From Actinophytocola xinjiangensis (GTDB taxonomy: Bacteria; Actinomycetota; Actinomycetes; Mycobacteriales; Pseudonocardiaceae): a stretch of DNA of 64,000 nt. The stretch covers positions 124,001-188,000 of the forward strand of contig NZ_MSIF01000015.1 of NCBI RefSeq assembly GCF_001921215.1. Reading direction: 5' to 3'. Positions 41,950-60,001 of the stretch are shown here, in pieces (position 1 is the first letter of the stretch; each line of letters begins with the position of its first letter). The notes beneath the pieces are model-generated. The model was not told the DNA's origin. It saw only the letters and a program-made list of their open reading frames with translations, and made no database searches. Made by a program: the position numbers and the translations under genes.

Positions 41950-42538
41950 GCGCCAACGGTAGAGAACCCCGAACCCGACCCCGCGCCAGGGAGCCAGTGG
42001 CGCCCCTGACGCGAGCACTCCGGCCCGGCCGCCTCGCCCCCACATCCTCCGGCCCAACGAATTCAGCCCAACCGAACTCGGCCCAGCCAACCCCAGCTCA
42101 ACCGAACCCAGGCCTGCCCAACCAACCCCCCAGTCCAACCGCACCCAGGCCCAGCCAACTCCGGCCTGACCCGAACCCCAGACCAGCCAACCCGGCCCAA
42201 CCGCACCCAGACCCGGCCAACCCCGGCCCAACCGGTCCCAGCCCAGCCAACCCCAGCCCGCCCGAACCCAGACCAGCCGACCTCGGTCCGCCCGAACCCG
42301 GCCAGCACGGGTTCGGGCGGTCTCTGCCCCACCGAGGACAAACGGCGAGCCCACCGCATCGGTGAACCGGAGGTGCTCGGTCAGCAGACCCCGGTTCAAC
42401 CTCGGTTCGGCCAGCCCCGACCACCGGACTCGGGTCCGGTCGGCTCCGGCCTGGCAGCCCCGGCCCACCGGCTGCAGCCCGGCGAGCACTGGTCCACACC
42501 GGTTCCAGCTCAACCAGCCCGGCCCAGGTGGCGTCGGG
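41950..42538. repeat. Low-complexity C-rich/G-rich spacer with degenerate repeats
   Basis: About 590 nt without a credible gene. From roughly 42,055 to 42,310 the plus strand is a string of variants of CCAGCCAACCC, CCCAACCGAACC and CCCGAACCCAGACC; flanks are weaker. The plus strand is strikingly C-over-G biased, so the minus strand has many GG/GGG runs. All frames are open but translate to low-complexity G/W/L or P/A/N strings. A similar texture occurs inside the SerRS-like gene. No promoter or terminator is visible. Confidence 0.6.
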
Positions 42539-44466: not shown

Positions 44467-45657
44467 GTGCGACATGTGGCGGTGGTGGGCGGCGGCATTC
44501 TCGGGCTCGCGGTGGCGCGCGAGCTGACGACCCGGGGCGAGCGGGTGACCGTGTTGGAGAAGGAGAACCGGTGGGCCGCCCACCAGACCGGGCACAACTC
44601 GAACGTCGTGCACGCCGGCCTGTACTACGAGCCGGGGTCGTTCAAGGCCAGGATGTCCGTGGCCGGCAACAAGTCCATTGTGGACTACGCGCGGGCGAAC
44701 GACGTCCCGTTCTCGGTGTGCGGCAAGCTGGTCGTCGCGACCAGCGAGGCGGAGCTGCCTGGCCTGCACGCCTTGGCGGCGCGCGCGGAGGCCAACGGCG
44801 TGCCGGCGAAGCTGATCCAGCCGGCGCAGGCCCACGAGTACGAGCCCGAGGTCGCCTGCGTCGCCGCCCTGCGCGTCGAGTCGACCGCGATCATCGACTT
44901 CCCGGCGATCTGCGCGGCGCTGGTCCGCGACCTGACGGCCGCCGGCGCGGACCTGCGTCTGGGCACCCCGGTGCGTGCGATCCGCTCCACCGCCGGCGGC
45001 GGGGTCGAACTCGCCACCGGCACCGGCACCGGCACTGACGTCGTCCGGGCGGACGCGCTGGTGAACTGCGCGGGCCTGCACAGCGACCGGGTCGCCCGGC
45101 TGGCCGGGCTGACGCCCACGGCGCGGATCGTGCCGTTCCGAGGCGAGTACTTCACGCTTCGCCCCGAGGTGTCACACCTGGTCAGGGGCCTGATCTACCC
45201 GGTGCCCGACCCGACGTTGCCGTTCCTCGGCGTCCACCTGACGAGGATGCTCGACGGCTCGGTGCACGCCGGCCCGAACGCCGTGCTCGCCCTGCGCCGC
45301 GAGGGCTACCGGTGGCGGGACGTGTCCTGGCGCGACCTGACGGAGTCGGCGCGGTTCCCCGGCCTGTGGCGGCTGGCGCGCCGGTATCCACGGACGGCGG
45401 TGGACGAGGTGGTCCGCTCGCTGTCGCGCCGCCGGTTCGCGGCGAGCCTGGCGCGGTTGGTGCCCGCTGTCGGCCGGGAGGATCTGGTGCGGGCGCACGC
45501 CGGGGTGCGGGCGCAGGCCCTGCTCCCCGACGGCACCCTGGTGCACGATTTCCTGATCGAGACGGCACCGAACCAGGTGCACGTGCTCAACGCCCCGTCG
45601 CCGGCGGCGACCAGTGCGCTGGAGATCGCGCGTCACGTGGCCGACCAGGTCAGGTAG
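44467..45657 (+). CDS. lhgO: L-2-hydroxyglutarate oxidase
   Basis: A 396-residue FAD-dependent oxidase. VAVVGGGILGLAVARELTTRG is the Rossmann motif with VLEKENRWAAHQTGHNSNVVHAGLYY, which is diagnostic for LhgO. CAGLHSDRVARLAG and FRGEYFTL are also conserved. It oxidises L-2-hydroxyglutarate to 2-oxoglutarate at the membrane, a metabolite repair step. GTG start, 11 nt after the SCO6745-family gene. Its end overlaps the convergent transporter gene by 8 bases. Confidence 0.92.
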   Translation: MRHVAVVGGGILGLAVARELTTRGERVTVLEKENRWAAHQTGHNSNVVHAGLYYEPGSFKARMSVAGNKSIVDYARANDVPFSVCGKLVVATSEAELPGLHALAARAEANGVPAKLIQPAQAHEYEPEVACVAALRVESTAIIDFPAICAALVRDLTAAGADLRLGTPVRAIRSTAGGGVELATGTGTGTDVVRADALVNCAGLHSDRVARLAGLTPTARIVPFRGEYFTLRPEVSHLVRGLIYPVPDPTLPFLGVHLTRMLDGSVHAGPNAVLALRREGYRWRDVSWRDLTESARFPGLWRLARRYPRTAVDEVVRSLSRRRFAASLARLVPAVGREDLVRAHAGVRAQALLPDGTLVHDFLIETAPNQVHVLNAPSPAATSALEIARHVADQVR

Positions 45658-46522
45658 TGCGCCCGGTGGCGATCAGCGAGCCCCCGATCAGTACGGCGCC
45701 GACGACACCGGCGACCGTCATCCGCTCGCCGTGGAACAGCACCGCGAGCACGGTGGCCGTCAGCGGTTCCAGCATGGTGGACAGTGCGGCGGCCGTGGCG
45801 CCCGCCCGCCGCAACCCCAGGAAGTAGGCCCCGTACGCGAGGGCGGTGGGCACGATCCCGAGGTATCCGATGAGCGCCACGGTGTCCACCGTCAGCACCG
45901 GCACCATCCCGTATCCGAGCGCGAACGGCGTCAGCAGCAGCCCGCCGAGCAGGAGTCCCACGGACACGGTCGCCCCCTGCGCCGCCACCGGCCGCGCCGC
46001 GACCAGCGTCAACGCCGCGAACCCCGCCCCGGCCGCCAACGCCGTCACGACACCGACGACGGTGCGAACGGTGTCCCCGCCGACGTCCGGCGCACCACAC
46101 AACAGCCCGAGCCCGACGAGTGAGGCGGCCAGCGCGGCGAGTACCTGGCGGCTGGGAAGCCGCCGGTCCCGCACAGCGGTGACTCCCGCGACGAAAACGG
46201 GAACACAACCAATGGTGATGAGCGTCGCCAAACTCACCGAAATCCGTTCGACGGAAATCTGGTAAGCCACCTGAAACTCGGCGAGAAGAATTCCCGTGAC
46301 CACCAACCGGCGCCACACCACGGCACCCCGCAACTGCCGCAACATGCGCCCAACAGCGACGGTGGCAACAAGTCCGCCCACCAGAAGCCGATAGGCGGCG
46401 ACAGCAACCGCGGACAGTCCACCCGCGGACTGCAGAAGGTCACCGGCAATCCCGCCGGTCCCCCACAGAACTCCAGCACAAATCAACAGCAGCGCGGAAA
46501 CCCGCGCGGAATCGATGGACAA
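45650..46522 (-). CDS. EamA/DMT-family transporter
   Basis: A 290-residue ten-helix drug/metabolite transporter with two EamA halves (LLICAGVLWGTGGIAGDLL and ALAAGAGFAALTLVAARP; the second half has TALAYGAYFLGLRRAGATAAAL and LEPLTATVLAVLFHGE). Likely exports a small metabolite. The TTG start has GGGAG eight nt upstream; no ATG or GTG near. The rate-setting context is unknown. Confidence 0.85.
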   Translation of the reverse strand: MSIDSARVSALLLICAGVLWGTGGIAGDLLQSAGGLSAVAVAAYRLLVGGLVATVAVGRMLRQLRGAVVWRRLVVTGILLAEFQVAYQISVERISVSLATLITIGCVPVFVAGVTAVRDRRLPSRQVLAALAASLVGLGLLCGAPDVGGDTVRTVVGVVTALAAGAGFAALTLVAARPVAAQGATVSVGLLLGGLLLTPFALGYGMVPVLTVDTVALIGYLGIVPTALAYGAYFLGLRRAGATAAALSTMLEPLTATVLAVLFHGERMTVAGVVGAVLIGGSLIATGRTT

Positions 46523-46726
46523 GATGAACGCTCCCAAGCGTCAGAAGAGGGTGATGTCCTCGTCCGCGGGGCGTTCACCGAGCAATGTCAAGCAGGCGCG
46601 ACCACCGGTCGCGCCGTCAGCACACCCCGCTCAGCCGCGGGGAGGTGGGGTGATCGGGAAGGTCCGATGCATGCGGGCACGCTACGACGCCACCCGCTGG
46701 ACCACCAGCCATTTACGAGTCCCCGA
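46523..46726. other. Intergenic stretch with no recognised feature
   Basis: About 200 nt upstream of the transporter's start and downstream of the SerRS-like stop. It should hold the transporter promoter; I see no clear motif other than the palindrome at its right edge. Confidence 0.4.
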
Positions 46727-46741
46727 TCACGGGCCCGTGAT
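46726..46741. terminator. 16-bp perfect palindrome over the SerRS-like stop
   Basis: ATCACGGGCCCGTGAT is a perfect palindrome covering the stop codon region of the SerRS-like gene. It could act in termination or as a binding site. Confidence 0.35.
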
Positions 46742-49261
46742 GGTGCCCCCCAGCGCCGCCGGCAACCGGACGGAGCCGTCCTCCCACTGATGGTTCTCCA
46801 GCAGGGCCGCGATCCAGGCACCCAGCTCCAGCGACCCGGTGACGGTGGCCGCCGTGCGCACCCGACCCCGCCCGTCCCGACAACGGATAGCCAGACGTCG
46901 CGCCTGGTAGGTGGTGCAGTTCGATACCGAGCCGACGCGCCGGTGCCGCCGAGGATGGGGCAGCCACACCTCGCAGGCGAAGGTGCGAGCCGAGGCCCGA
47001 GCCAGCTCACCCGCGGGCACGTCGGTCACCCGACAGGGAACACCGGTAGCGACAAGCAACTCCTCCTGACAGTCCAGCAGCCGACGCTGCTCACCCTCGA
47101 CGTCGCCCGGCGCACAGTGGACAACGAACCCCACCGTCGCCCCCGCAAGCCCTCCACCGGCCACGGTTTCCCGCCCGAAGCCCGTCGACCAGGCCAGATA
47201 CCGCCGGGGGCCGCCGGACAGGTCAAGGATCTCGTCCGCATGCCAAGCCGTCAGCGCTGTCAGCGCCGTCTGCGGCGTCTGCGGCGTCTGCGGCGTCTGC
47301 GGCGTCTGCGGCGTCTGCGGCGTCTGCGGCGTCTGCGGCGAGCCCACCAGATGCGCCTGTCCCGACCCCGCCCACACCGGCGAAGCCATGGCCGTGAACC
47401 CCCGGTCGGCGGCCCGTGCCGCCACAAGGTTCACCAGAGCCAACTCCAACCGCGCCCCGCCCCCGATCAGACAGGGAACCCGGGCGCCGGCGACCTTCAC
47501 ACCACGCTCAACGTCGATGATCCCCAGCCGCCCACCGATCTCCAGGTGCCCCGCGGCACCGCCCGGTCGATCACGCCCCCGCCGCACCGAACCGGCGGCC
47601 CCCACTCGCCCCCCGCCCTCGACACGACCACCGACCTCCCCCTGACCAGCCCACCCGACAGGGTCCCCGAACCCCGCTTGACCAGCCCGCCCGACACGGC
47701 CCACGAACGCCGCTTGACCAGCGAACTCACCCTCCCCCACCACCTGCCCGCCAACGGTCTCAGCCCGACCTACCTGTCCACCAACAGACCCCGCCCCAGG
47801 AACACGGACTCCACCGACCGACAGCACCTCACCCACCGGCGCAGCCCCATCCTCACCAACAGACACAGCTCCCCCAGCCCCCGCAGCCCGATCCACCGAC
47901 CCGACCCCACCCACCAACCCAACCTCACCAACAGACACAGCTCCGCCACCCCCCGCAGTCTCACCCACCGACGCGACCGCACTGCCCGACGTAGTCCCAC
48001 CCACCCGCGCGGATATACCGGCCGCCGCAACCCCACTTGCCCACGCAGCATCACCAGTGGCCCCAGCATCACCCGCCAGCCCACCATCGTCAGCCGACTC
48101 AGGCCCACCCACCGGCCCAGCCCCACCGACCCGCCCGACACCACCGCCACCTGACCGAGCTTCACCAACAGGCCCCGCGCCACCAGCCGGTTCAGCCCCG
48201 ACACCACTCATAGGCGCTGTTGCCAACCCACCCACACCCACCGGCCCAACCGCACATGCCGGCGCACCGCCGCCGACCGATTCGGCGCCACCAGCCGATT
48301 CTGGTTCGCCAGCCCGCGCCGCCCCACCAACCGGATCCGCCCCACCCACACCAGCCGAACCATGCTCATCCGCCGCCGCAACCTCACCACCCACCGCCGA
48401 GCCATCAACCTGCCCAGCTCCACCGACTGACCCGGTCTCACCAACCCGCGTGGCCCCACTGTCCAGCTCAGCCTGGCCGATCAGCCCGACCACACTCACC
48501 TGCCCAGCGCCGCCGACCGACCTGACCCCGCCGACCCGCGTGGCTCCCCTTGCCAACCCAGCCCCACTCACCTGCCCGGCCCCATCGACCTGCCCGGCTC
48601 CACCGACCTGCCCGGCCCCACTGTCCAGCCCAGTCTCACCGACCGACCCAGCCCCACTCGCCAGCCCGACCCCACTCACCTGCCCGGCCCCATCGACCTG
48701 CCCGGCCCCACCAACCAGCCCGGTTACGCCGACCAGCCCGGTTACGCCGACCAACGCCGCCTCACCAACCGACCACACCTCACCATCCAGCGCCTCTGCC
48801 CCAGCCGCTCCCGCCGGCGGCGCCGCCCGGCCGGCCGGCGCGACCTCTCCGGGTGGCGCGGCCCGCCCGCCCCGCCCGGTAGTTGGGGTGGTCACCTTCA
48901 GCACGACGTAGTCGTCGCTGCCACCTGGGGGTGTGTTCGGGTGGATGAGGTTGGGGAGGTGGGCGTGGAGGTCGGAGGCAGCGGTCTCGGCCTGGGACTG
49001 GGCGGCTGCGGCTGCCCGGACAGCGGCTGCCAGCTCCTTGCCTCTGGTGAGCAGACGGTCACGCTGGTCGCCTCGGGACCGGGCTATCTGTCTGCCGAGC
49101 TGTTTCTGTTCGGTTCGGAGGGTGTTCGTTCTGGTGACCGCGGTGCGGCGGCGCTGGTCGGCGGCGAGGAGGGCGTCGACCAGGGCGGGGTCCTCGCCTC
49201 GGGTGCGTTGGGAGGTCCTGAAGAGCTCCGGATCCTCACGCAGCGTCCTCAGGTCGATCAT
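46727..49261 (-). CDS. Degenerate seryl-tRNA synthetase paralogue with large repeat insert
   Basis: 844 residues. Residues 1-123 match the SerRS tRNA-binding arm (MIDLRTLREDPELFRTSQ, coiled coil, HLPNLIHPNTP). Residues 572-844 match the SerRS catalytic domain (HLEIGGRLGIIDVERG, ARLELALVNL, WHADEILDLSGGPRRYLAWS, SNCTTYQARRL, ILENHQ-like LLENHQWEDGSV). About 440 residues of G/A/V-rich hexapeptide repeat lie between. Key residues are lost: motif 2 FRRE is FGRE, the DTRG...HQF stretch after it is gone, the TSE serine loop is replaced by (PQT)8, and the motif 3 arginine is Ala. Aminoacylation is therefore very unlikely. It may be a pseudo-enzyme or a decaying gene. Confidence 0.8.
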   Translation of the reverse strand: MIDLRTLREDPELFRTSQRTRGEDPALVDALLAADQRRRTAVTRTNTLRTEQKQLGRQIARSRGDQRDRLLTRGKELAAAVRAAAAAQSQAETAASDLHAHLPNLIHPNTPPGGSDDYVVLKVTTPTTGRGGRAAPPGEVAPAGRAAPPAGAAGAEALDGEVWSVGEAALVGVTGLVGVTGLVGGAGQVDGAGQVSGVGLASGAGSVGETGLDSGAGQVGGAGQVDGAGQVSGAGLARGATRVGGVRSVGGAGQVSVVGLIGQAELDSGATRVGETGSVGGAGQVDGSAVGGEVAAADEHGSAGVGGADPVGGAARAGEPESAGGAESVGGGAPACAVGPVGVGGLATAPMSGVGAEPAGGAGPVGEARSGGGGVGRVGGAGPVGGPESADDGGLAGDAGATGDAAWASGVAAAGISARVGGTTSGSAVASVGETAGGGGAVSVGEVGLVGGVGSVDRAAGAGGAVSVGEDGAAPVGEVLSVGGVRVPGAGSVGGQVGRAETVGGQVVGEGEFAGQAAFVGRVGRAGQAGFGDPVGWAGQGEVGGRVEGGGRVGAAGSVRRGRDRPGGAAGHLEIGGRLGIIDVERGVKVAGARVPCLIGGGARLELALVNLVAARAADRGFTAMASPVWAGSGQAHLVGSPQTPQTPQTPQTPQTPQTPQTPQTALTALTAWHADEILDLSGGPRRYLAWSTGFGRETVAGGGLAGATVGFVVHCAPGDVEGEQRRLLDCQEELLVATGVPCRVTDVPAGELARASARTFACEVWLPHPRRHRRVGSVSNCTTYQARRLAIRCRDGRGRVRTAATVTGSLELGAWIAALLENHQWEDGSVRLPAALGGTITGP
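47267..47338 (-). repeat. Nine-bp tandem repeat encoding (Pro-Gln-Thr)8
   Basis: Eight copies of a nine-bp unit (plus strand CGGCGTCTG) in frame with the SerRS-like gene, residues 642-665. Each copy adds PQT. It replaces the serine-binding loop. Copy-number change would not shift the frame. Confidence 0.85.
47567..48892 (-). repeat. 18-bp minisatellite inside the SerRS-like gene
   Basis: Degenerate 18-bp units, clearest at about 48,580-48,770 (plus strand CACCGACCTGCCCGGCCC and variants), encode hexapeptides of the type QVDGAG/QVSGAG/SVGGAG on the minus strand. The array is about 1.3 kb and interrupts the linker between the two SerRS domains without breaking the frame. Confidence 0.8.
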
Positions 49262-49349
49262 CGCGGGAGCGTATCCAGAGGCCGGTTTGGGCGGACAATG
49301 CGATTCGGCGCCTGCGCACACCACCGACGCTGGCATTATGGACGCCGTC

Positions 49350-50327
49350 ATGGGCAGCAAGACTGGACGAGGCAGATCGATGGGCTCTCGGGGGAGCACC
49401 ATGCGTACCCGCTTGGTCATGGCCGGGGCGTTCATCGGTGCGCTGGCCGTGCTCAGCGGCAGCATGCTGTTCTCGTGGCCCGTGTCGGTCGAGGGCAAGG
49501 CGGATACCGTCGCGCAGGAGGCGGCCGAGGCGTTCGACTCGCCGAGTGGCGCCTGCCTGGACTGGCCGCACGACAAGCCGCAGAACATGCGGCGGGTGTC
49601 GTGCGAGAAGCCACACACCTTCGAGGTGACCAGCAACGTCGAGATCGGCGGCGAGTACGGCCCCAACTCCAAGCCGCCGGCCGAGACCGACTGGCAGCAG
49701 ATCGTCACCGAGAGGTGCACCGCCGAGGCCACCAAGTACCTGGGTGGCACTCTCGACCCGTTCGGCAAGTACACCGCCGGCGCGCTGAAGCCCAACTCCG
49801 AGCAGTGGGGCAACGGCGACCGGCGCCTGCGCTGCGGCATCCAACGTGTCACGCCCTCCGGGGAGCGCCTCCTTCCCACGACCGGAGCCGCCGCCGAGCA
49901 GGACCAGTCGAACGTGCATGAACCGGGGACCTGTTTCGCCCTGGTCGAGGGCCAGGTGGGTGACCCCGTCGCGTGTGAGAACGCGCACGCCTACGAGGTG
50001 GTCGGCGTGGTGGACCTGAGCACCACGTTCGACCCCAAGGCGTTTCCGAGCGAGGCCGCTCAGCGGGAGAAGCTCGTCGATCTCTGCCCTCCGGTGGCCA
50101 ACAAGTACACGGGCAACGCGAACCTGCAGGCCAACAAGCTGTCGCTCTATTCGGACACGCTGAAGAAGGAGAGCTGGCTCGCCGGTTCGCACCTGGTGAA
50201 CTGCAAGGTGGGCGCGCGTGAGAAGGACGGCCAGCTGAGGCCGGTCCGCGGCAGCGTGCAGGCGGCGCCGCTGCCGTCCTCCCCCGCGCCGTCGCAGTCC
50301 GCCCCACCGTCGAGCCCCGGCCGGTGA
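49350..50327 (+). CDS. Septum-formation-family membrane protein
   Basis: A 325-residue protein with one N-terminal membrane helix (AGAFIGALAVLSGSMLFSW) and two extracellular septum-formation (Septum_form) units, each with a Cys pair: SGACLDWPHDKP...RRVSCEKPHTFEV and GTCFALVEGQVGDPVACENAHAYEV. The C-terminus is Pro/Ser-rich. CATTAT at 49334-49339 fits a -10 box, so the mRNA may start at or near this ATG (leaderless); an ATG at 49401 after GGGGAG is an alternative start. Divergent from the SerRS-like gene, and followed after 4 nt by a metallopeptidase gene. Confidence 0.8.
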   Translation: MGSKTGRGRSMGSRGSTMRTRLVMAGAFIGALAVLSGSMLFSWPVSVEGKADTVAQEAAEAFDSPSGACLDWPHDKPQNMRRVSCEKPHTFEVTSNVEIGGEYGPNSKPPAETDWQQIVTERCTAEATKYLGGTLDPFGKYTAGALKPNSEQWGNGDRRLRCGIQRVTPSGERLLPTTGAAAEQDQSNVHEPGTCFALVEGQVGDPVACENAHAYEVVGVVDLSTTFDPKAFPSEAAQREKLVDLCPPVANKYTGNANLQANKLSLYSDTLKKESWLAGSHLVNCKVGAREKDGQLRPVRGSVQAAPLPSSPAPSQSAPPSSPGR

Positions 50328-50331
50328 CGCC

Positions 50332-50682
50332 GTGCCCGTGGAGATGGGCCGGCGGCGGTTCGAGGAACTCGTCGGCGACGCGCTGGACCTGATCCCCGGT
50401 GATTTCGCCGCCGCGATGGACAACGTCGTGGTGCTGGTGGAGGACCGGGACCCGGAGCAGCCCGACCTCCTCGGGCTCTACCACGGGGTCGCGCTCACCG
50501 AACGGACCTCGGACTACGGCGGCGTGCTGCCGGACCGGATCACCATCTACCGCGAGGCGATCCTGGACATCTGCGACAACGAGGACGACGTGGTGGAGGA
50601 GGTCGCCATCACGGTCGTCCACGAGATCGCCCATCACTTCGGGATCGACGACGCGAGGCTGCACGAGCTGGGCTGGGGCTGA
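50332..50682 (+). CDS. Zincin-like metallopeptidase-family protein
   Basis: A 116-residue protein of the small metallopeptidase family (PF06262 type). Fold landmarks: RRFEELVGDALDLIPGDFA, VVVLVEDRDPEQPDLLGLYHG, and HEIAHHFGI giving HExxH with a distal acid (ID), consistent with a zinc site. Biological substrate is unknown. GTG start four nt after the septum-formation protein stop; the two are probably one operon. Confidence 0.9.
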   Translation: MPVEMGRRRFEELVGDALDLIPGDFAAAMDNVVVLVEDRDPEQPDLLGLYHGVALTERTSDYGGVLPDRITIYREAILDICDNEDDVVEEVAITVVHEIAHHFGIDDARLHELGWG

Positions 50683-50735: not shown

Positions 50736-51341
50736 ATGAACGACGAGCTGTGGACCCTCGAGCAGCTCCCGGAGCGTGTCGCCGAACTGCTGGCCGACGA
50801 CTACGACGGCCAGACCAACGGTCGCGTCCGGGATCTGCCCAACGGTCGAACCATCCGTTGGTACACCACCATCGGGTTGGTCGACCGGCCGGTGGGTACG
50901 CGCGGTCGCAGCGCCGTGTACGGCCCGCGTCACCTGCTGCAACTCGCCGCCGTGAAGCGTCTGCAGTCGGCTGGCCAGACACTGGCGCAGATCCAGGAGC
51001 AGATCGTCGGCGCCACCAATGGCCAGCTCGCCGACCTGGCCAAGGTACCGCGCATCGACGTGGTCTGGCCCACCCGGCCCATCCGTGCCGACGCGTTCTG
51101 GCGCACCGCACATTCGAGTGACACCAGCAAGGCTGACAGTGTCGCTGACAGTAAGGCACCGGACTTAGTCACGCCCCTTCACGCCATCCGTCTTGGTGAC
51201 AGTGTCACCGTCACGTTGGACTCCGCCCCCCGGGCGCCCGACGCCGACGAGCTCGCCGCGATCGCGACCGCCGCCGCGCCGCTGCTCGATCTGCTGGGCA
51301 GCCTCGGCCTCGCGCCCCCACCCCGAAAGGACTCCCCATGA
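50736..51341 (+). CDS. MerR-family transcriptional regulator
   Basis: A 201-residue regulator. The N-terminal MerR HTH (WTLEQLPERVAELL, NGRTIRWYTTIGLVDRP) contains an insert (DDYDGQTNGRVRDLPNG) compared with compact MerR proteins. KRLQSAGQTLAQIQEQIVGATNGQLADLA forms the dimer helix. The C-terminal part has no ligand-binding motif I know. It overlaps the VIT/VWA gene by four bases (ATGA), so both are co-translated. The decamer found in its own promoter recurs twice in its 3' half. Confidence 0.85.
   Translation: MNDELWTLEQLPERVAELLADDYDGQTNGRVRDLPNGRTIRWYTTIGLVDRPVGTRGRSAVYGPRHLLQLAAVKRLQSAGQTLAQIQEQIVGATNGQLADLAKVPRIDVVWPTRPIRADAFWRTAHSSDTSKADSVADSKAPDLVTPLHAIRLGDSVTVTLDSAPRAPDADELAAIATAAAPLLDLLGSLGLAPPPRKDSP
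51134..51209 (+). promoter_or_regulatory. TGACAGTGTC motifs inside the merR coding end
   Basis: TGACAGTGTC occurs at 51134-51143 and 51197-51206; the second lies in the perfect palindrome GGTGACA-G-TGTCACC (51195-51209). The reverse complement of the same decamer is in the promoter at 50703-50712. A site inside the coding region could allow the regulator to control the downstream gene separately. Confidence 0.45.
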
Positions 51342-53941
51342 ACCCCCGTGTCGACCTGATGGACCTGGTCGAGACACCCGAGCGGCCCTCCGACGACGAC
51401 GGCCTCGGCTGCCTCCGCACCGCCGAGGGCAACCTGCCGCTCGACTCGATCGACGTCCGGGCGGCGCTCACCGGTCTGGCCTCGAACATCGAGCTCACCC
51501 AGGGTTTCCACAACCCGCACGACACCCCGCTCGAGGCGACCTACGTCTTCCCGCTGCCGCCCCGGGCGGCGGTCACCGCGCTGCGCATGGAGGCCGACGG
51601 CCGGACCGTCGACGGTGTCCTCAAGGAGCGGGAGCAGGCCAGGGCCGACTACGACCAGGCCGTCACCGAGGGCAAACGCGCCTCGATCGCCGAGGAGGAG
51701 CGGCCCGGGGTGTTCACCATGCGGGTCGGCAACATCCTGCCCGGTGAGCGGGTCAGCGTGCGGGTGACGCTGGCCGGCGCGCTGTCCTACGAGGACAACG
51801 CGGCCACCTTCCGGTTCCCGCTGGTGGTCGCGCCGCGCTTCATCCCCGGCCAGCCACGCGGCGGCGACCAGGTCGGCGACGGCGTCGCCCCGGACACCGA
51901 CGTGGTGCCCGACGCGTCCCGGATCAGCCCACCGGTGCTGTTGCCCGGGTTCCCCAACCCGGTCCGGCTGTCGGTGGCGGTCGACGTCGACCCCGCCGGC
52001 CTGCCGCTGACCGGCGTCTCGACCAGCCTGCACGCCACCGCGACCACCGAGGACAGCCCCACCGGCCTGCGGGTGCGTCTCGACCCCGGCGAACGAGCCG
52101 ACCGGGACTTCCTGCTCAGGCTCACCTTCGCCGACGAGTCCGCGATCCGGACCTCACTCGCCGTCCGGCCCGACCAACCCGACGACAACACCGACGGTGA
52201 CAGCGACACGGGCAACAGCCCTGACAGCGACAGTGACGCCGGCGGGGTCGCTGGCAGTGCCGCCGACACCGGTGGCACGTTCGCGCTGACGATCCTGCCC
52301 CCGGCGAGGCCGGCGCCCCCACGACCGAGAGACGTCGTGCTCGTCCTGGACCGCTCGGGGTCGATGGGCGGCTGGAAGATGGTCGCCGCCCGCCGGGCGG
52401 CGGCACGCATCGTCGACACGCTCGGGAGCGCCGACCGGTTCGCCGTGCTGGCGTTCGACCACGTCGTCAGCACTCCCCCGACCCTGCCCAGCGGGCTGGT
52501 GGAGGCCAGCGACCGCAACAGGTACCGCGCGGTGGAGTTCCTGTCCGGCGTGGACGCCAAGGGCGGGACCCAGATGCTGGAACCCCTGTCCACGGCCGCC
52601 GCCCTGCTGGGCCCGGACACCGAACGGGACCGGGTCCTGGTGCTGGTCACCGACGGGCAGGTGGGCAACGAGGACCAGCTACTGCGAGAGCTGACCCCGG
52701 GGCTGACCGGGGTCAGGGTCCACACGGTCGGCATCGACACCGCGGTCAACGAGGCCTTCCTGCAACGGTTGGCCGGGTCGAGCGGACGCTGCGAACTGGT
52801 CGAGTCCGAGGACCGGCTGGACGCCGCCATGACCCACATCCACCGACGGATCGCGTCCGCCGTGGTGACCGATCTCCGCCTGGCGCCCCAGGGCCTGGCG
52901 ATCGACGACGACTCGCTCGCCCCGACGGTCCTGCCCGACCTGTTCGACGGCGCCCCGGCGGTGATCACCGGTCGCTACACCGGCTCGCCGGCCGGTGGCC
53001 TCACGGTCTCCGGCGGTGATGGCTGGAGCACGACGGTCACCGCGAGCCCGAGCGACAACCCGGCGCTGGCCGCGCTGTGGGCGCGGGCCCGGATCCGCGA
53101 CCTGGAGGACCGCTACGTCGTGGGCGTCGGCAGCGTCGAGCGGCCCGAGCTGGAGAAAAGGATCGTCGCCACGTCGCTGAGGTTCGGGGTGCTGTCGCGG
53201 TTCACCGCGTTCGTGGCCATCGACGAACGTGTGGTCAACGAATCCGGCAGGGTCCACCGCGTGACCCAGCCGGTCGACCTGCCCAGTGGTTGGGAGACCG
53301 AGGCCATCTCGGCCTTCGCCGCCGCTCCGGCACCCGCGGCCCAGGCCATGGGCTATGCCTCCGCCCGCCGGATGGGCGCTGCCCCGGCCGGCCGTGCCGA
53401 GTCCGGTGGGGCGCTGGCGTTCGGCTCCGGGTTCGCCGGACTCGGCGGGGGTTTCGCCCCGGAGAAGGCGCCCGGACACCTTGACCGGCCCGGCAGCGCT
53501 CGTCGAACGCCGAAGCTCCCGTCGCCCATCCCGCAACCCCCGGGTGTCCGGCCGCCGAGCGGCCCGAGCCCGCTCGCGCCCGAGCCGTCCGTGCCGGAGC
53601 CGGAGAAGCCGGTGGCCGACGTACCGGCGGTTCTGCCCACCCTGGCGGTCTTCGCGAACAGGGAACGGAACCTGCTCATCGACGAGGCCAGCAAGGACGT
53701 CTGGACCAGGTTCGCGCAGTTGAACGCCCTGGCCGGGCGTATCAAGCCCCTGCTGGAGCACTGGCTCAAGACCGGTGAACGACCGACGGCGGTCCATTCG
53801 ATGACCGTGCTCGCCAACGACCTCGCGAAACCGACCGACAACCCCAACATGGCCGATTCGCTGTGGTTCATGGCCGTGGTGACCCTGGAAACGGTGTCCA
53901 AGCCGAAGCCACCGCCGCGCAGCACCTTCTGGAAAGACTGA
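51338..53941 (+). CDS. VIT and von Willebrand A domain protein
   Basis: An 867-residue cytoplasmic protein (no signal peptide). A VIT domain (about 20-160: NIELTQGFHNPHDTPLEATYVFPLPP, ERPGVFTMRVGNILPGE) precedes a VWA domain with intact MIDAS (VLVLDRSGSM at about 332, GGTQM, VTDGQVG), as in inter-alpha-trypsin-inhibitor-like proteins. The C-terminus has a Pro-rich stretch (about 720-760) and a helical end (RIKPLLEHWLKTGERPTAV). Role unknown in bacteria; protein-protein or metal-dependent ligand binding. It is coupled to the MerR gene and ends at a strong hairpin. Confidence 0.9.
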   Translation: MNPRVDLMDLVETPERPSDDDGLGCLRTAEGNLPLDSIDVRAALTGLASNIELTQGFHNPHDTPLEATYVFPLPPRAAVTALRMEADGRTVDGVLKEREQARADYDQAVTEGKRASIAEEERPGVFTMRVGNILPGERVSVRVTLAGALSYEDNAATFRFPLVVAPRFIPGQPRGGDQVGDGVAPDTDVVPDASRISPPVLLPGFPNPVRLSVAVDVDPAGLPLTGVSTSLHATATTEDSPTGLRVRLDPGERADRDFLLRLTFADESAIRTSLAVRPDQPDDNTDGDSDTGNSPDSDSDAGGVAGSAADTGGTFALTILPPARPAPPRPRDVVLVLDRSGSMGGWKMVAARRAAARIVDTLGSADRFAVLAFDHVVSTPPTLPSGLVEASDRNRYRAVEFLSGVDAKGGTQMLEPLSTAAALLGPDTERDRVLVLVTDGQVGNEDQLLRELTPGLTGVRVHTVGIDTAVNEAFLQRLAGSSGRCELVESEDRLDAAMTHIHRRIASAVVTDLRLAPQGLAIDDDSLAPTVLPDLFDGAPAVITGRYTGSPAGGLTVSGGDGWSTTVTASPSDNPALAALWARARIRDLEDRYVVGVGSVERPELEKRIVATSLRFGVLSRFTAFVAIDERVVNESGRVHRVTQPVDLPSGWETEAISAFAAAPAPAAQAMGYASARRMGAAPAGRAESGGALAFGSGFAGLGGGFAPEKAPGHLDRPGSARRTPKLPSPIPQPPGVRPPSGPSPLAPEPSVPEPEKPVADVPAVLPTLAVFANRERNLLIDEASKDVWTRFAQLNALAGRIKPLLEHWLKTGERPTAVHSMTVLANDLAKPTDNPNMADSLWFMAVVTLETVSKPKPPPRSTFWKD

Positions 53942-58980: not shown

Positions 58981-59327
58981 TCTCCGGGCTGGGTACGCGC
59001 CCAAGGTTCCGTTCGCGACGGAAGTTATCCACAGGAAGCGGTTGACCAGCCAAAACCTCACCCCACGCAACTAGACTGGAAATCGGGGGGCCCCCGAGCG
59101 CAGGGGAGATTCGAGCGAGCGCATGAGAGCCTGAGCGGGGCGTGAGGGCCGGGGGTGGTGTGCCGCCGCCTGGTGCCCGCCGGCGGCTCTCGGAGGTCTG
59201 GGCTCGAGCGTGGATTTGCTGGCATCTGTCCCGCGACCCGTCTTTTGGCCGACTATGGCCGGCTTCTGGCGGCGCCGGGCGAGTCAGGCGGATCAGGGCG
59301 CGGGCGGGGTCAGGCGGGATCGTGCAC
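58981..59327. other. Non-coding stretch after the sigma-factor gene
   Basis: About 350 nt with no credible gene. It contains a second copy of the DnaA-like/TAGACT element (59025-59095) and otherwise G-rich low-information sequence. Confidence 0.5.
59025..59095 (+). other. Second copy of the DnaA-box-like/TAGACT element
   Basis: TTATCCACA (59025-59033) is followed 47 nt later by TAGACTGGAAATCGGGGGG (59072-59090) and CCCCC. It differs from the element at 13,024 by one base in 19 and has the same order and spacing. It lies downstream of the sigma-factor gene and before the minisatellite. Confidence 0.4.
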
Positions 59328-59790
59328 GGGTCACGTGGATCGACGCCAGAGTCGACTGGACCGGGCGCCAGGTCAGGCGGGGTCGAGCGCCGGGCCAGAC
59401 GGATCGGCGCCAGACCAGGCAGGTCGAGCACCAGGTCAGACGGATCAGCGCCAGACCAGACAGGCCGGGCACCAAACCAGCGGGTCAAGCACCAAATCAC
59501 GCGGATCGAGCGCCAGACCAGGCAGATCGAGCGCCACGTCAAACGGATCGAGCACCAAGACAGACGAGCCAGGCGGGTTAAGCACCAAGTCACGCGGGTC
59601 GGGCACCAGACCAAGCGGGTCAGCACCAGCCAGACCGATCGAGTACCAAACCAGACGGGGCCGCCAGGCGGAGTCGCGCGCCGGGTAAGACGGGTCGGCA
59701 CCAGACCAGCCGGAGTCGCGCGCCCAGATCAGACAGGCCGGGCACCAAACCAAGCGGATCAAGCACCAAGTCACGCGGGTCGGACGCCGG
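59328..59790 (+). repeat. 21-bp degenerate minisatellite
   Basis: Tandem units of about 21 bp, consensus near CGGATCGAGCACCAGACCAG, with occasional 9-bp inserts. One frame reads as heptads (RIERQTR, QIERHVK, RIEHQDR) but every frame on both strands is nearly open, so coding is not supported. Confidence 0.7.
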
Positions 59791-59902
59791 ACCAAGCCCA
59801 TCAACCACCACGACACGCCGGCCAGACACCAGACCAAGCCCATCAACCACCACGACACGCCGGCCAGACACCAGACCAAGCCCATCAACCACCACGACAC
59901 GC
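59791..59902 (+). repeat. Perfect 42-bp tandem repeat, 2.7 copies
   Basis: The 42-bp unit starting ACCAAGCCCATCAACCACCA is repeated exactly at 59791, 59833 and 59875 (last copy 28 nt). Its length is twice the 21-bp unit just upstream. Identity of the copies suggests recent expansion. Confidence 0.9.
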
Positions 59903-60001
59903 GGGCGGGCCCACATCATGCGGACCGGGTGCGGGTCAGGTGGACCGGGCGCGGGTCAGGTGGGCGGGGCGCGGGGCGCGGGGGCGGGGCGCGGGGCGGG
60001 G

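Follow-up and report, generated by a model that had tools for sequence, protein, structure and literature searches.

RESULTS

A serS relic at its native locus

We analyzed a window of 64,000 nucleotides from the genome of Actinophytocola xinjiangensis, and all positions given here refer to this window. The minus strand carries a single uninterrupted reading frame, 844 codons long, from 46727 to 49261, which we refer to as the relic. The features of the locus are as follows:

45650..46537, minus strand: EamA-family transporter gene (PF00892), downstream of the relic, a possible polarity partner; likewise in 3 of 5 genus-mates
46730..47548, minus strand: remnant of the seryl-tRNA synthetase (SerRS) catalytic body (residues 572 to 844; from alignment), which lacks the Arg of motifs 2 and 3, the serine loop, and DTRG..HQF
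47247..47340, minus strand: PQT tract, a near-perfect 9-nt tandem unit in about 9 to 10 copies, in place of the serine-binding loop (repeat analysis)
47549..48895, minus strand: repeat insert (residues 123 to 571, 449 codons) with an 18-nt period encoding a V-G-G-A-G-Q-like hexapeptide (alignment and repeat analysis)
48896..49261, minus strand: SerRS N-terminal coiled-coil (tRNA-binding) arm (residues 1 to 122; PF02403, codon-position and likelihood tests), its constraint partly retained
49262..49276, minus strand: putative leaderless promoter -10 ATACGCT, immediately before the start codon (from upstream sequences)
49398..50327, plus strand: divergent neighbor, septum-formation-like, with a predicted start; syntenic in 5 of 5 genus-mates, 70 to 85% identity in the genus
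50332..50682, plus strand: zincin-like metallopeptidase (PF06262); syntenic in 5 of 5 genus-mates
50736..51341, plus strand: MerR-type regulator (PF13411); syntenic in 4 of 5 genus-mates, the fifth contig ending before it
51338..53941, plus strand: VIT/VWA protein (PF08487, PF00092); syntenic in 4 of 5 genus-mates, the fifth contig ending before it

As a sequence-only reading of the DNA had proposed, a SerRS arm and a SerRS-like catalytic part lie together in this one frame. Residues 1 to 105 match the Pfam arm domain of SerRS (Seryl_tRNA_N, PF02403) at 71.5 bits, above the cut-off of 28.2. The match of tRNA-synt_2b to residues 712 to 824 (23.5 bits) falls below its cut-off of 29.3, and the serS model TIGR00414 scores the relic at 175 bits, below the curated cut-off for a functional SerRS (301.65).

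The N-terminal coiled-coil arm is the part of SerRS that recognizes tRNA-Ser. In an alignment with nine relatives, the arm of the relic was 61 to 66% identical in amino acids to those of five genus-mates, and the native-type arms of all nine relatives were 52 to 66% identical to it; it also matched the sequences of five solved SerRS, including 1ser. A single-sequence AlphaFold model of the arm gave one long helix at residues 25 to 100 (pLDDT, 83.8; pTM, 0.45) instead of the expected hairpin. The ATACGCT box 5' of the relic is a putative -10 element of a leaderless promoter. A promoter-like box was present upstream of serS in all five genus-mates, four of which carry GGATACGCT.

At this locus, an intact SerRS is present in all five genus-mates, flanked by the zincin metallopeptidase and by the divergent neighbor, which we presume to be septum formation-like. 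Beyond SerRS, four of the five have a gene that we take to be L2HGDH-like, and in three an EamA gene adjoins (one of these is a contig-end fragment); the loci of two genus-mates, G004 and G005, run into contig ends. Because this gene order is shared with all five, the relic is the species' own serS, passed down by vertical descent, and a syntenic orthologue of the native serS of the genus. The sequence-only reading had called it a paralogue, and synteny rules out a paralogue that arose by duplication. That reading had also named an intact SerRS at the same locus of relatives as a finding that would tell against it: the intact genes do remove the paralogue, and loss after displacement still stands.

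The catalytic body has lost its key residues

The losses that had been read from the sequence were all borne out by the alignment with nine relatives. Motif 2 FRRE has become FGRE, DTRG has been replaced, 11 residues spanning the HQF stretch are missing, the TSE serine loop gives way to PQT repeats, and the motif 3 Arg is Ala (TTRW to LGAW). With these residues lost and the TIGR00414 score under its cut-off, the relic is predicted to have lost catalysis, as had been claimed.

The linker has been filled with an in-register repeat

The repeat insert does lie in the linker, as first read, which spans 14 residues in the relatives versus 449 codons in the relic. Within the insert (residues 124 to 567) there are no stops in its own frame, compared with 8 and 21 in the remaining frames of the coding strand and 2, 3, and 4 in those of the opposite strand. 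All 398 pairs of similar 36-mers in the insert are in codon register; for two further arrays within the window, used as controls, the figures are 12 of 110 (98 out of register) and 295 of 598 (303 out), with first members stepped by three bases in the insert and by one in these controls. Variability across the insert is highest at codon position 2 (0.31 versus 0.16 and 0.25), which indicates that the amino acids of the repeat are without selection.

We considered whether the insert is a copy of a domain present at another place in the genome. This was ruled out: beyond the insert itself, a DNA search of the genome returned only one 40-bp partial match, and a protein search across the genome returned only the self-match.

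In total, 14 arrays of at least 150 bp were identified in 857,024 bases (about 9% of the genome, window included). Several of them combine CA-rich sequence with mixed periods, and others have periods that are multiples of three. In the window, the stretches 42052 to 42303 and 59276 to 60001 consist of minisatellite arrays that are skewed and rich in A, their periods including 20, 41, 61, and 62, and similar arrays occur elsewhere in the genome (L097, L101, and L108). The coding-strand GC skew flips sharply at the arm/insert border (window position 48890), from about -0.4 to +0.3 and then to +0.4 to +0.6 in 120-base windows. The substitution spectrum also differs on either side of this border, with the arm losing G (27 of its 35 changes are away from G) and the catalytic part gaining it (56 of 149 changes are toward G).

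The only full-scoring SerRS lies elsewhere and is of another type

In the genome of the relic (G000; 72 contigs, 99.26% complete), only one SerRS exceeds the TIGR00414 cut-off, and it lies on contig C3, away from the native locus. This C3 SerRS carries both SerRS Pfam domains, including an arm of its own (PF02403, 63 bits, residues 1 to 109). Its relatives in a scan of the contigs of other genomes, which confirmed 2 of 41 pattern-matched stretches and may leave out the window's own genome, were a protein of Micromonospora sp. MW-13 (70%) and one of an Acidimicrobiaceae MAG (52%). In a tree, it groups with these two and apart from the further SerRS copies of the genus-mates, and its catalytic part is 32 to 33% identical to that of the relic. 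With the native locus catalytically dead, and with the sole SerRS over the cut-off both located elsewhere and different in type, the most likely history is displacement of the native enzyme by a xenologue. Displacement together with loss of catalysis is well supported, and we consider it close to certain.

Each of the five genus-mates has, in addition to its intact native gene, one or two SerRS that belong to other types (L070, L071, L072, L073, L074, L076, and L077); the extra SerRS in G001 and G003 are near genes that we take to resemble leuS and tdh. On contig C11 of G005 there is a short SerRS N-terminal piece, which probably represents a gene truncated at contig ends. The neighbors of the C3 SerRS look to us like lipA, sucB, and DedA. 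We rejected an antibiotic self-resistance locus there: no obvious cluster was present in the 19.5 kb around the C3 SerRS, and the neighbors, going by these presumed names, look like ordinary metabolism genes.

Constraint differs between the arm and the catalytic part

In trees of the neighbor genes, the branch of this species is of ordinary length (0.14). The terminal branch of the relic is 1.71 for the catalytic part versus 0.04 to 0.08 in the genus-mates, and 0.37 for the arm versus 0.09 to 0.13, i.e., about threefold faster. As a saturation-free measure, we counted the relic's own changes at nucleotide sites that are invariant in the genus, with at least four of the five mates present. In the catalytic part, changes were found at 60/210, 55/217, and 34/94 sites of codon positions 1, 2, and 3 (0.286, 0.253, and 0.362), and in the arm at 17/84, 6/93, and 12/36 (0.202, 0.065, and 0.333); the neighbor genes gave 17/576, 13/628, and 24/274. 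With each genus-mate as the focus instead, position 2 of the arm and catalytic part ranged from 0.005 to 0.051. The two parts of the relic differ at position 2 (P = 7e-5; stratified by base, z = -3.94) and are alike at position 1 (P = 0.19) and position 3 (P = 0.84). Because position 3 has changed alike and position 2 has not, the third-position load was equal and the protein-level filter was unequal. The same split appears in the residues that are invariant in the genus, of which the arm retains 61 of 75 versus 114 of 202 in the catalytic part (P = 1.3e-4); for invariant arginines, the counts are 10 of 10 and 13 of 17.

The catalytic part, with its nearly flat codon positions, looks to have drifted almost neutrally since displacement. 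The arm's protein-level constraint probably outlived catalysis, and the arm has relaxed too. Loss of codon-position constraint, the mark of a pseudogene, was found in the catalytic part and not in the arm, and the codon models gave no support for full neutrality. The sequence-only reading had left a choice between a new factor and a gene in decay kept open; this choice holds up, with each alternative fitting one half of the gene.

Relaxation of the arm is visible in several ways. Its net charge is +3, compared with -4 to -8 in the nine relatives, acidic residues having been lost. Its substitutions, mostly away from G, form an unusual spectrum that likewise tells against a living arm. Holding the arm at background constraint costs 18.0 lnL (-21007.4 versus -20989.4), and denying it neutral time costs 15.7 (-21021.4 versus -21005.8). 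In simulations, an arm with one neutral change per codon kept 51% identity (standard deviation, 4.4; 500 runs); the observed identities to G001 (65%) and G005 (67%) are at or above the simulated maxima of 65% and 64% (500 runs), and that to G004 (62%) stays below the simulated maximum of 71% (mean, 51%; 500 runs) and so is within the neutral range.

With omega constant over the branch (lnL -20989.4), omega is 0.144 for the arm and 0.297 for the catalytic part, and this model fits better than models with neutral segments (-21005.8 and -21004.2). It is important to note that synonymous change on the relic branch is near saturation and that freeing the neighbors' omega shifts all omega values, and thus we do not rely on absolute values. 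An omega of 1 over the whole branch was rejected for either part (catalytic part, lnL -21028.7). Fitted alone, the arm had an omega equal to the background, with an implausibly long branch. In a joint codon model, separate neutral fractions (0.127 of the branch for the arm and 0.372 for the catalytic part) beat a shared onset by 11.3 lnL, and a model in which a shared neutral onset is followed by an omega of 0.35 in the arm fits about as well as separate onsets.

We also considered an antisense extension of the divergent neighbor as the source of the constraint on the arm. Position 1 of the arm faces antisense position 2, so position 1 should then be the most conserved; it is not, and this candidate was rejected.

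The frame remains open

Premature stops and frameshifts, which would mark a pseudogene, were not found in the 844 codons or in the aligned blocks of at least 50 bases among the matches listed; in DNA alignments with G001, G003, and G005, every such block among the matches listed is in the native frame. Short self-cancelling gaps in these alignments look like alignment noise. In simulated neutral decay, the catalytic part stayed free of stops in 4 to 14% of runs when decayed to 53 to 60% identity and in 9 to 21% when decayed to 70%. At one change per codon, the chance of being stop-free was 0.04 to 0.05 for the catalytic part and 0.33 to 0.36 for the arm. The GC content at the three codon positions of the catalytic part is 75/60/84%, versus 70/59/86% after simulated neutral decay.

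DISCUSSION

The explanation that we favor, and to which we give about an even chance, is that of a displaced native serS whose arm stayed under selection longer than catalysis did, in a frame that is still open. A SerRS of foreign type, now on contig C3, would have taken over aminoacylation, although the order of these events is our reconstruction. The native catalytic body, thereby freed, would have drifted and lost the serine loop, the arginines of motifs 2 and 3, and the HQF stretch, and the linker would have been filled with the 18-nt minisatellite. The arm would have remained under amino acid-level selection longer, behind a native-looking promoter, with the frame kept open. If the product is made, its arm may bind tRNA-Ser, for instance as a chaperone, as a competitor, or to sense its uncharged form, and what follows the arm, repeat and catalytic remnant alike, may be a passively tolerated tail. 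The relic is known from one genome of a single strain, and on the evidence of its sequence, a present function is conceivable, at somewhat under an even chance; an unbroken pseudogene is about as likely as a functioning relic. If the favored explanation is true, the relic is an essential synthetase seen partway from displacement to disappearance, its two domains following separate courses, and would show a route from dead synthetases to new tRNA-binding proteins.

The strongest competitor is a plain pseudogene that has yet to acquire its first stop or frameshift, in which everything drifts after displacement, the minisatellite expands in the manner of arrays elsewhere in the genome, and GC-rich codons keep the frame open. 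We regard this as a serious possibility that falls a little short of an even chance. The near-flat codon positions of the catalytic part and its GC profile, close to that of simulated decay, speak for it, as do an insert without amino acid constraint, an arm that is accelerated and no longer at background constraint, and the skewed CA-rich arrays elsewhere in the genome. It accounts less well for the arm, where position 2 was preserved although the changes at position 3 match those of the catalytic part, and where a shared neutral onset fits worse by the 11.3 lnL given above. Nor would it lead us to expect blocks of at least 50 bases that, among the matches listed, are all in the native frame, or an insert that is fully in codon register, unlike the two other arrays of the window.

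Two further explanations seem to us very improbable. In one, the only force keeping the frame open is polarity: a premature stop would uncouple translation and reduce expression of the EamA gene that follows downstream in the same orientation, as it does in three of the five genus-mates. About 190 bases separate this gene from the relic, no EamA match lies beside serS in G002 and G003, and such polarity would not protect position 2 of the arm. In the other, which we would be equally surprised to see confirmed, the foreign SerRS gains an extra tRNA-binding arm by pairing with the dead protein. The same split of fates is seen in SLIMP (PMC10570016). The foreign SerRS has its own arm at 63 bits, so nothing is missing that the relic could supply. 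The catalytic body of SerRS carries the dimer interface, and it is this body that drifts near-neutrally in the relic; the two catalytic parts, moreover, share only 32 to 33% identity.

SLIMP of animal mitochondria is nevertheless the closest known system: it is a SerRS homologue that has lost the active site and kept the N-terminal coiled-coil arm (PMC10570016), and the relic likewise appears to have its active site ablated and its coiled coil kept. The differences are considerable. SLIMP forms a heterodimer with the active SerRS and binds tRNA-Ser, and the likeness of the relic to it is one of sequence; the partner of SLIMP lost its coiled coil, and the presumed partner of the relic, the C3 SerRS, keeps its PF02403 arm. 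SLIMP is a duplicate from an animal mitochondrial clade, and the relic is a native gene left after displacement in a bacterium, actinobacterial by synteny and by grouping in trees without animal rows, with a drifting catalytic body and a 449-codon insert. A bacterial counterpart of SLIMP that arose by displacement, i.e., a free tRNA-Ser-binding arm that trails a long, glycine-rich repeat and serves tRNA-Ser as chaperone, sensor, or clustering factor beside the foreign SerRS, is an unlikely possibility and would be new. The titles and abstract openings of the literature matches listed describe no bacterial SerRS that has lost its active site and retained its arm, which is not proof of its absence from print.

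Other SerRS-related systems resemble the relic in part. The native SerRS of the genus (TIGR00414) shares its locus, promoter-like box, and arm, and differs in having the catalytic residues and lacking the insert. Antibiotic producers, according to PMC9437257, have a second SerRS (SerRS2, albomycin) that is a working, antibiotic-insensitive enzyme, so that two SerRS of low mutual identity occur in one bacterium there as well. In that case the second copy works, whereas here the native copy is dead and no obvious antibiotic cluster appears in the 19.5 kb around the C3 SerRS, going by presumed gene names. The SerRS-like aa:CP ligases are named in the same source (PMC9437257). They are comparable to the relic as SerRS-derived proteins outside normal tRNA charging. 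These ligases keep the catalytic body without the arm, a loss opposite to that of the relic, which keeps the arm.

We searched for the native-type arm in 20 other genomes of the family, which were chosen by eye as having a single SerRS-model match each among the matches listed (three of them without a listed place), and found it in none. There were weak matches in 17 (27 to 40% identity, in frames of 423 to 827 residues) and none in 3; against the 52 to 66% of native-type arms, this suggests that these 20 genomes are without the native arm altogether. In some genomes of the family (e.g., in genera g58, g3, g43, and g5), SerRS seems to be exclusively of a non-native type, which hints at repeated displacement of serS.
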